In this document: positions 43,187 through 50,619 of the stretch, in pieces | How positions within the stretch are numbered: the first letter of the stretch is position 1 | Layout: each line of letters opens with the position of its first letter | Origin: an uncultured Acidimicrobiales bacterium | GTDB lineage: Bacteria; Actinomycetota; Acidimicrobiia; Acidimicrobiales; SHLQ01 | Reading direction: 5' to 3' | Length of the DNA stretch: 64,000 bases | Assembly (NCBI GenBank): GCA_938084885.1 | Contig: CALKGG010000109.1 | Location: 1 to 64,000 of the forward strand | Notes under the pieces: generated by a model | Databases searched by the model: none | Told to the model about the DNA's origin: nothing | Seen by the model: only the letters and a program-made list of their open reading frames with translations | Program-made: the position numbers and the translations under genes

Positions 43187-43986
43187 GGCTGTACCTCCCG
43201 GTGGTTGGCAGCAAAGCGCTCGGAGATCTCCTCGAACTTGGCGCCGACAATGTCATCGGCGACCCGTTCGAAACCGTCGACACTGATCGTGGCAAAGATC
43301 GGGAAGATGCCTCGCAGCGTGTCTGCACCACCGGTTGCTGAATCAGCGTCGGCGGCTTGAAACAGCGATTGTGCCAGCAGGCCAACCGCCTCATCGGCGC
43401 TCATATCTCGCCGATATCCAACCTTGATCACAGTTTCGGCATGGAGCGACCCTGAACCAGTGGCTGCGTAGTCGGATTCTTCATAACGACCGCCAGTGAT
43501 GTCGTATTCGAACAGCCGTCCACTTTCGCGAGCGAGGTCGAATCCGGCAAAGATCGGTACCACTGCAAGACCCGACATTGCCGCAGGCAAGTTCGATCGC
43601 AGCATTTGTCCAAGTTGGTTGGCCTTGCCTTCGAGGCTGAGCGGAGATCCCTCCACCTTCTCGTAATGTTCGAGCTGCAGTTGGAACAGGCGGACCATCT
43701 CGACCGCAGGCCCAGCCGCGCCCGCAATTGCCACGGCACTATGGCGATCCGCAGCGAAGACCTTCTCAATGGAGCGATGCGAGATGAGGTTTCCTGCGGT
43801 TGCCCGCCGGTCCCCCGCCATCACAACGCCATTGGTGTAACGCACCGCAACGCAGGTCGTACCGTGCGTGATCTCTGGGGCGGTTATCCCCTCGGCGGGA
43901 GGAAAGGGTTCGGCTCCAGTTGAACGAACAAGTCGGGCAAAGTCAGGCCCGGGGTCATCGCCGGGCGCAAAGTACGGAAGATTCAC
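43183..43986 (-). CDS. prcB: 20S proteasome beta subunit (catalytic)
   Basis: A 267-aa beta subunit with a propeptide of 42 residues; the active Thr1 is T43, in [15 protein letters not shown]. The catalytic Asp and Lys lie in [20 protein letters not shown]. Self-cleavage before T43 would make the active enzyme. Its ATG overlaps the pup stop (ATGA), so pup, prcB and prcA are a coupled unit. Confidence 0.95.
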
Positions 43987-44174
43987 TGTCCACCTTTTTG
44001 GATGTAGCTCTTTACGAAATCCTCGGCATTCGTCTCGAGAACTTCGTCGATTTCGTCGAGGAGATCGTCCATGTCGGACTTTAGCTTTTCGCCCGATTCA
44101 GAGGCGGCCGGTAGTGTGTCGGCCTCGACCTCGTCGCGTTGGTCAACCTTCTTCTTCTGTTCACGCTCTGCCAT
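43983..44174 (-). CDS. pup: prokaryotic ubiquitin-like protein Pup
   Basis: A 63-aa, acidic, largely disordered protein. Its helical ARC-binding region is about residues 25-52 ([19 protein letters not shown]) and the C-terminus is YIQKGGQ. The final Gln must be deamidated to Glu by Dop before PafA can attach Pup to lysines. It lies 54 bp downstream of dop and overlaps prcB. Confidence 0.97.
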
Positions 44175-47967: not shown

Positions 47968-48744
47968 TCAGGCTCGTTCGAGGAGCCGGGCGCTGGTGAG
48001 AAAGCCGGTGTGGCCGACCATGCGGTGGTCGGGTCGAACTGCTTGACCCTCGACATGCCAACCGCGCTGGATGAACTCAGTGGTATCGGCCATTGCGAAG
48101 CCGTGGTCCTTTAGCGCATCGCGAAACTTGCTCACCTGGGTGATGCTCGGCGTGTAAGCAACAATAATTCCACCGGTTCGCAGCGCCGTTGCTGCGTGAG
48201 GGACCACCTGCCACGGCTCGGGCAGATCGAGGACGACGCGATCGAAATCGGTCTCATCGATTCCGTCATATGAGCTACGCAGCTGCACGTCGTAGCGCTC
48301 GAGTGCGCCCTCGCCAAGAAAATCGGACACGTTACTTTGTGCCCGAGTAGCGAAGTCTTCTCGAAGTTCATAGCCCGTAATCTCGGCGCCCGCTCGCAGC
48401 ATCGTCATCGACAGCGCCCCCGAGCCAACGCCAGTCTCAAAGACCCGCGCGCCCGGAAAGATATCGGCAATCAACAGCAGCGGGCCGAGATCCTTTGGAT
48501 AGATGACCTGTGCTCCTCGTGGCATCTTCAAGATGCGTTCGGCGAGGGTCGGCCGAATGACCAGGTAGGTCCCACCCTTGGTCGAGCGAACAATGCGTCC
48601 TTCGGCGCTGCCGATCAGGTCGTCGTGCGCAACGCTGCCCGCGTGGGAGTGAAACTCTGCACCGGCCTTGAGCGTGACGAGGTAGCGGCGGTCCTTGAAA
48701 TCGACGAATTGGACGGTTTCGCCTTCGGCGAGCATTCGGTTCAT
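47968..48744 (-). CDS. trmI: tRNA (adenine-58-N1)-methyltransferase TrmI
   Basis: A 258-aa SAM-dependent methyltransferase. The N-terminal beta domain is followed by GAQVIYPKDLGPLLLIADIF, the SAM loop VFETGVGSGALSMTMLRAG and the catalytic LDLPEPWQVV. It methylates A58 in the T-loop of tRNA. Its ATG overlaps the stop of the ttuA-like gene (ATGA). The trmI-mpa neighbourhood is also found in mycobacteria. Confidence 0.92.
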   Translation of the reverse strand: MNRMLAEGETVQFVDFKDRRYLVTLKAGAEFHSHAGSVAHDDLIGSAEGRIVRSTKGGTYLVIRPTLAERILKMPRGAQVIYPKDLGPLLLIADIFPGARVFETGVGSGALSMTMLRAGAEITGYELREDFATRAQSNVSDFLGEGALERYDVQLRSSYDGIDETDFDRVVLDLPEPWQVVPHAATALRTGGIIVAYTPSITQVSKFRDALKDHGFAMADTTEFIQRGWHVEGQAVRPDHRMVGHTGFLTSARLLERA

Positions 48745-49700
48745 CCGTCGAGCATGTCGCGGCGAGTGTCGATTTCCACTGGAACCGGCCGAGAAGCTAA
48801 CTCGACCAGTTTACAGAACGAACACACCTCGTTGGTCGAGGGGCTTCCGCAGACGACACATGGTGAGATGTTCTCGTCGGGCCGGCCACTTTTGGCTTCC
48901 ACTGCAGCACTGAACAACTCAGCGGCCCGGTCGAGGAACCCAAAGTAGAACGCGTGCTTTGCTCCTGGTGAGGCCACCTCCATGGTGTTGAGCAGGTCCT
49001 TGTATTCGAGGTGCTTGTTGCCCGCGGCCATTGGGCACTCATCGACGACATAGTCGATGTTGTTCAGCACGCAGTACGCAGCCATTTCCCGTTCTCCCAG
49101 GCGTACGAGAGGTTTGGCCTTGCGGGGAAAGCCGTTTGCTGCAGGAAGCACCGGGTGTTGCCGTGCCAGATAGTCGCGCTGCCAGCGGCTCACGTTGCCG
49201 AACAAGACCGCGGCTTCGTCATCTAAGTTGTGGCCCGTCACGACAACGTCGTAGCCGTGATCGAGCGCCACCGAGTCAAAGATGTGCCGTTTACTTAAAC
49301 CACACGACGAACACGGGACGCGTTTGGTTGCTTCAGCGGCACTCGGAACCGTAAACCCATGTTCGTCTTGGAGCGAGTGATAGTGGAGGGTGAGCCCGCG
49401 TTGGTCAGCAAAGTCACGTGCAAACGCCGTGCTCTGCTCGGAGTAGTCATCGATTCCGAGCCCAATGACTAGGCCATCGGCGGCGTATCCCAATTCGACC
49501 AAGATGTCCCATAGGGCGAGTGAATCCTTACCGCCCGACACCGCAACGAGCACCCGATCACCAGGCTCGAACATCGAAAACTTGTCGATGGCACGTTCTA
49601 CCTGGCGCCGACAGAACGCCATGAAATGCTCCGCGCAAAATGCGGCGTTGTGCTGGCGCAGCTCGATCACGATGCGGCCGCTGCACACCCTGCATTTCAC
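48741..49700 (-). CDS. TtuA-like tRNA 2-thiolation enzyme
   Basis: A 319-aa PP-loop ATPase of the TtuA/Ncs6 group. The PP-loop is SGGKDS (55-60). The Fe-S/catalytic cysteines are C130 and C133 (VPCSSCG) and C222 ([11 protein letters not shown]). Zinc fingers lie at both ends: C3/C6 with C22, and C281, C284, C293, C296. In Thermus, TtuA with sulfur carrier TtuB makes 2-thio-5-methyluridine 54 in tRNA. The GTG start overlaps the stop of the TtuB-like gene (GTGA) and the stop overlaps trmI. The position-54 role is inferred from family and neighbours; wobble thiolation is the alternative. Confidence 0.85.
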
Positions 49701-49924
49701 GCCGGAGGCGCCTTGCCCGTATCGATACCCTGCCCGCCCGAGATCACACGACGAATCTCAATATCGTCGTCGTCTCGAAGTTTGGTATTGCCCGCAAGCA
49801 ACGTGCCGTTCACGATGACAAGAACCGACTCACGGTTGAGCTCGAGCGTTTCCACCAACGAGGCCACAGTGAGCGGACCATCGAACTCGAGCACGCGATC
49901 CGGGTTTCTGAGCCGGACCTTCAT
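49697..49924 (-). CDS. TtuB/ThiS/MoaD-like sulfur carrier with C-terminal tail
   Basis: A 75-aa ubiquitin-fold protein. The core ends [11 protein letters not shown] (G63-G64), the same ISGG end as Thermus TtuB, but 11 more residues follow ([11 protein letters not shown]). Sulfur carriers need Gly-Gly at the very C-terminus for adenylation and thiocarboxylate formation, so the tail must be cut off, or the protein is inactive as encoded. The codon after GG is CAG, one change from TAG. It is coupled to the ttuA-like gene (GTGA) and overlaps the upstream gene by 1 bp (TGATG). Confidence 0.85.
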
Positions 49925-50619
49925 CAGTCGACGTTGGGCTCTGCGCTCGTTACCTGGGCAGCGTTGCGTTTCGCACGTGTTGCAGCTCGGACTTGCCGGC
50001 GGGCAGCAAGCCGTTCAGCTCGGGCTTGGCGACGCGCAGTGCGGGCTGCTTGGCGAGCCTGTCTCTCGGCATCCTTCGCGTGCTTTTTGGCCTGCTTCGC
50101 CGTGCGTTTCGCGTCGTGTGACCGCTGTGCAGCCTCGACTTTCGCGTGCTTTGCGGCCCGCTTGTCGAGCTTGGTTTGACGCTTCCGTTGCTTGTTTGCG
50201 GCTCGCTTTTGCGACCGGGACACCGACGGCGGCGGAAAGACCTCTTCGCCAAGGATCTGATTGATCCGCTCCGGCGACGGCGCTTCAAGAATTTTTTGTC
50301 CAACGACGCCGAGCGCCAAGCCAGTCATCGTATTTGCCCGAGGCTTCTTGCGCTTTGGACCGATCAGGAATTTGCGGCCGTGACCGAGGCCCTTGCGGGT
50401 CTTTTCGGGCTCGTGCACAACAGCCCAGACTTCGCCCTCTTTCAGGGGCTCATCAAAGGTGATCGGCGGATCTCCCCCCTTTGACAACTTCGAGAACTGT
50501 TTGTACCCGAACTGCGCAATCCAGACCGCCCGCCAAATCGGGGAGCCACCGATCAAGCCCTGCCGTAAGGCACGAGCTTTGATGAGTCGCGTGAGTGTGC
50601 GTGTCTTTCCAGTAGCCAC
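49924..50619 (-). CDS. very basic protein, unknown function
   Basis: A 231-aa protein with GTG start. The N-terminal about 135 residues look folded ([55 protein letters not shown]). The last about 95 residues consist almost only of Lys, Arg, Ala, Gln and a few Glu (e.g. [19 protein letters not shown]), probably a long charged helix that binds RNA, DNA or the membrane surface. It sits between small membrane proteins and the tRNA-thiolation genes. No family known to me. Confidence 0.65.

Follow-up and report, generated by a model that had tools for sequence, protein, structure and literature searches.

A capped TtuB-like sulfur carrier of the Acidimicrobiia and its probable maturation by a JAMM peptidase

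The Wolinella protein HcyS carries a residue after its Gly-Gly motif, which is trimmed by the JAMM protease HcyD. Thiocarboxylate use in HcyS/HcyD methionine synthesis is cited in PMC6225789; both this pathway and its operon differ from those of the carrier described here. In Streptomyces, PtmS2 and PtmS3 bear a cap (MV or C) after Gly-Gly, and the thioacid products are no longer made once either ptmS1, encoding the JAMM protein, or ptmS4, encoding the E1, has been knocked out (PMC6006322). These proteins and the QbsE-QbsD pair of the thioquinolobactin pathway resemble the present system in the residues that follow Gly-Gly, in the use of a JAMM protein to expose this motif and in the MoeZ-type E1. 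They belong to secondary metabolism, however, and in the described cases the JAMM gene is clustered with the carrier gene, whereas our carrier is assigned to tRNA thiolation, has a hypervariable cap overlapping the next gene, and has an unlinked JAMM gene. In mycobacteria, the JAMM protein Mec acts at a carrier's Gly-Gly, and several carriers receive their sulfur from MoeZ (PMC3227635); CysO ends in GG and Mec takes off newly made cysteine, unlike the situation in the genus studied here, where CysO was not detected. Among solved structures, the JAMM1-SAMP2 complex of Pyrococcus (PDB 5LDA) is closely related to both our carrier and its candidate peptidase, but it is archaeal and was presented as a deubiquitinase homologue. 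Finally, TtuB/TtuA of Thermus thermophilus (PDB 5GHA, 5ZTB) share with our locus the fold, the SGG end of the core and TtuA as the predicted partner; the solved Thermus TtuB chain ends at Gly-Gly, whereas the carrier of this study is capped and a JAMM peptidase is implicated.

The carrier gene and its operon

The carrier is encoded in the window (the whole stretch of 64,000 nucleotides that was analysed) by a minus-strand ORF (49697-49924) that starts with ATG and specifies 75 amino acids. The first-pass annotation gave this sequence correctly: the core ends in ISGG, the next codon is CAG, and a tail of 11 residues follows. That this is a real gene is evident from 153 orthologues with a conserved core, located directly upstream of ttuA. 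The features of the locus are as follows.

49924..50619 (minus strand): basic Lys/Arg/Ala-rich ORF upstream of the carrier gene; the TGA of this ORF and the carrier ATG have one base in common (TGATG)
49733..49924 (minus strand): ubiquitin-fold core, residues 1-64, with the ISGG end (ThiS match, TtuB alignment, fold model)
49733..49738 (minus strand): codons GGC GGG of Gly63-Gly64, the expected mature C-terminus, kept in nearly all orthologues and throughout a second, named set
49700..49732 (minus strand): C-terminal cap, residues 65-75, followed by the stop TGA; variable or absent among relatives
49697..49700 (minus strand): GTGA overlap of the carrier stop with the GTG start of ttuA
48741..49700 (minus strand): ttuA, tRNA U54 2-sulfurtransferase (LIM-type zinc motif, PP-loop SGGKDS, Fe-S ligand cysteines)
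47968..48744 (minus strand): trmI, tRNA m1A58 methyltransferase (GCD14 / TrmI-like_N), in overlap with the last bases of ttuA

Low-complexity ORFs similar to the one at 49924..50619 precede the carrier gene in the same-genus relatives L006, L008 and L009.

The Pfam ThiS match covers residues 9-64 (E 3e-8, above the cut-off) and stops exactly at Gly-Gly, while the alignment with the TtuB chain 5ztb_E extends over residues 3-64. SAMP2 and TtuB are the nearest solved relatives by sequence, the SAMP2 match being weak, and a Foldseek search with the AlphaFold model (pLDDT about 90 in the core and about 58, i.e. low confidence, in the tail) placed TtuB of PDB 5ZTB first (E 2.8e-4). The beta-grasp fold of ThiS/MoaD type expected of a TtuB is thus indicated by both Pfam and Foldseek. 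The C-terminal Gly-Gly, as encoded, is not present, since 11 residues follow it, and it would appear upon processing; residues after a conserved Gly-Gly are what a JAMM-matured capped carrier possesses. Judged by sequence, predicted fold and gene context, the protein is TtuB-like, with this one defining feature absent as encoded. Its identification as CysO (a cysM/mec neighbour of about 90 aa ending in AGG) was rejected, because the carrier gene adjoins ttuA and CysO has no match in the genome. The ttuA product aligns with Thermus TtuA (E 3e-83), including the PP-loop and the Fe-S ligand cysteines.

We propose that the carrier is a capped TtuB precursor, probably matured by the JAMM peptidase encoded between smpB and murI and then thiocarboxylated by a MoeZ-like E1. 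The protein would be translated with residues past Gly-Gly because the 3' end of its gene also initiates ttuA; the JAMM metallopeptidase would cleave behind Gly-Gly, and the single rhodanese-ThiF enzyme would adenylate and thiocarboxylate the exposed glycine. TtuA would then take the thiocarboxylate for 2-thiolation of tRNA U54, assisted by the m1A58 made by TrmI, a modification that speeds TtuA in Thermus (PMC6418473). Cleavage, the choice of JAMM protein, thiocarboxylation and tRNA thiolation are all suggested by homology to TtuA/TtuB, MoeZ and JAMM/Mec.

The JAMM peptidase and other carriers

A genome search for JAMM/Mec and E1 genes, as the first-pass annotation had advised, revealed both: one Mec-like JAMM gene, situated between smpB and murI, and a single rhodanese-ThiF, MoeZ-like E1 in a genome that is 93% complete. 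Mycobacterial mec likewise lies near murI. The E, HxH, S, D motif is present, so that the active site appears intact by sequence. The other JAMM protein of this genome (L002, contig C118; 559 aa, with a C-terminal JAB domain and a long N-terminal region) was set aside as a candidate owing to its length and its layout, which is unlike that of Mec.

We searched 395 Acidimicrobiia genomes, mostly metagenomic assemblies, and found ttuA in 146; the class search, a family search and stretches fetched for the remainder yielded a set of 153 carriers encoded directly upstream of ttuA. Residues follow Gly-Gly in 120 of the 153. In the family of the window, all eight genomes with tailed carriers have the JAMM gene and none of the three tailless ones does (Fisher p 0.006, uncorrected for descent). 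In two tailless genomes (G013 and G017) smpB and murI are separated by about 20 bp, which contain no JAMM gene, and its absence there is therefore no assembly gap; this locus was not recovered from G016, so the check covers two of the three. A JAMM match in G013 (38 bits) was rejected as Mec, being an unrelated JAMM protein with EWHTHP. Since the tailless genomes form a single clade nested inside a tailed genus (support 97/93), tail and JAMM gene were probably lost together, and the association within the family reflects essentially one loss event. Elsewhere in the family, genus g3 and G006 have neither ttuA nor the JAMM gene, while G012 and G007 have the JAMM gene and no detected ttuA.

CysO, the usual substrate of Mec, was not found in the genus of the window, with no match in the window genome itself, and most of the family is without it; CysO was therefore rejected as the reason for the presence of Mec in this genome. 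The only other carrier of the genus is MoaD-like and always ends in GG (SGG in the single copy of the window genome). These paralogues need no trimming, and their GG ends count toward removal of the tail from the TtuB-like carrier.

Removal of the tail by some other or general peptidase, the loss of the JAMM gene in the tailless clade being coincidental or tied to a different substrate, is in our opinion unlikely. Across the class the JAMM gene occurs in 110/120 tailed versus 27/33 tailless genomes, which is not significant (p 0.11), partly because most genomes also have CysO. The ten tailed genomes without a detectable JAMM gene (most, not all, of low completeness) are compatible with another peptidase, as is the probable flexibility of the short tails. 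The same applies to family f45 (L328, L329), which is tailless, has no CysO gene beside the JAMM gene and still keeps the latter, whose product likely has another substrate. Against this stand the perfect match of tail and JAMM gene in the family of the window, checked at the syntenic locus, and the fact that JAMM proteases serve the known capped carriers. Family f48 offers anecdotal agreement with the link: a tailless genome (G080, 95% complete) lacks both JAMM gene and CysO, and a tailed one (G269) has the JAMM gene without CysO.

Conserved Gly-Gly and variable tails

The tails are highly variable in sequence and length, and unrelated among orthologues; they range from 1 to 120 residues (15 of one residue, 71 of two, the commonest length) and are absent in 33 of the 153 carriers. 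Gly-Gly is nevertheless kept in 152 of the 153, and the preceding V-I/V-S is near invariant. The sole loss (MSGA-SR; L161 of G410) accompanies a ttuA split into two frames; this is a decaying operon and a natural control. In a second, named set, which includes isolates, overlaps the first and was chosen partly by the ISGG motif, tails occur in 72/80 carriers and Gly-Gly in 80/80. Two cultured relatives have two-residue tails, AA in Aquihabitans sp. G128 and AR in Acidiferrimicrobium sp. IK. Even within the genus of the window the end of the protein may be none, ER, AA, AV, QGPSS or the window's own 11 residues; the core does not vary.

The first tail residue is Ala or Ser in 98 of 120 tails. 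With last residues excluded, the values are 87/105 at tail position 1 versus 2/34 at position 2, and this bias fits a P1' preference. Four genomes of the genus to which the window belongs have Gln or Glu at P1' in place of Ala/Ser.

Long tails are found in L067 (G066), L012 (G001), L063 (G094) and L145 (G347), several of them being tandem repeats. Those of L067 and L012 hold extra copies of the ISGG segment and, on the basis of these motifs, more than a single GG might be cut. Genome G001 also encodes a MoaD-like paralogue (L322) whose GG is followed by further residues (PPVSGGAIAHGG...); other carriers may therefore be capped too.

Taking into account the invariance of Gly-Gly behind arbitrary tails, it is probable that the tail is removed, as an uncut tail would let Gly-Gly drift. 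The opposite reading, in which the tail is never removed and TtuA uses free sulfide, with the carrier merely docking on TtuA or having another role, finds support in some TtuA enzymes that do not need TtuB and are able to draw on sulfide (PMC6225789, PMC7138817). We nonetheless regard it as quite improbable, given the near invariance of Gly-Gly and V-I/V-S next to a tail that is free to vary, the need of the Thermus TtuB C-terminus to reach the Fe-S cluster, and the loss of Gly-Gly only together with a broken ttuA.

Thermus TtuB and archaeal SAMPs also form protein conjugates, and the Pup-proteasome genes lie downstream of the carrier-ttuA-trmI operon. Both facts would favour a role of the processed carrier chiefly in protein modification; the first-pass annotation, too, expected the processed form to give the cell another ubiquitin-like modifier in addition to Pup. 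We consider this very unlikely, and it found no support. The carrier gene forms an operon with the tRNA-modification genes ttuA, which it overlaps, and trmI, and it stands beside ttuA throughout the class survey, which indicates tRNA sulfur transfer. The Pup gene (43983-44174, minus strand; 63 aa) ends in GGQ, and some carrier tails of the genus begin with Q or E after GG; this likeness is probably coincidental, although Dop-type deamidation would be a conceivable link.

Origin of the tail and its significance

The capped precursor that we propose may owe its tail to the arrangement of the operon. In 66 of the 71 carriers with two-residue tails, the stop codon lies within an (A/G)TGA overlap with ttuA, and in these 66 the strongest pairing with the anti-Shine-Dalgarno sequence falls on the Gly-Gly codons, at -13, with a mean of -7.8 against a background of -1.4 kcal/mol. 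The Gly-Gly codons thus act as Shine-Dalgarno sequence for ttuA, whose start codon is spaced from them by the cap. In the carrier of the window these codons are not used in this way, and its 11-residue tail is an extension of the two-residue coupled state.

The nearest relative of the window carrier reads GGQGPSS and the outgroups of the genus have ER, AA and AV; the tail is therefore ancestral in the genus. The other option of the first-pass annotation, a recent stop loss with CAG derived from TAG (or a strain quirk or assembly error), is scarcely credible. CAG is indeed one transition away from TAG, and at this position the tailless G017 reads TAG, but CAG/CAA is likewise a single base away from GAG/GAA in the ER tails, most carriers of the class are tailed, and the tailless clade is nested in an ancestrally tailed genus. 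Orthologues that all end at GG, which by the first-pass annotation would have marked the tail as an error or strain quirk, are not what the survey showed. Its view of a TtuB-like carrier with a capped Gly-Gly holds, and maturation by a protease encoded elsewhere is the better of its two options, with the cleavage suggested by homology.

Among the open-access papers searched, none dealt with a tailed TtuB of Acidimicrobiia. JAMM-cut capped carriers are already known; a capped TtuB with a cap arising from translational coupling to ttuA is, tentatively, new. A broader reading, which we consider possible but somewhat doubtful, is that in most Acidimicrobiia the carrier is an obligate pro-protein. 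Its Gly-Gly codons would at once provide the ribosome-binding site for the gene that follows, with the cap as a by-product, and the JAMM peptidase, either older than the CysO pathway and ancestral to it or shared with it, would persist in lineages without CysO only for decapping. JAMM activity would in that case be a control point of tRNA 2-thiolation.

If the proposed maturation is true, the bacteria of a large class supply sulfur to their tRNA by way of a proteolytic step that the GG-ending TtuB of Thermus skips, and the JAMM/Mec genes of genomes without CysO gain a substrate. An operon overlap could then yield a ubiquitin-like precursor without dedicated design, and the reason for tails on prokaryotic ubiquitin-fold proteins would become testable in cultured strains.
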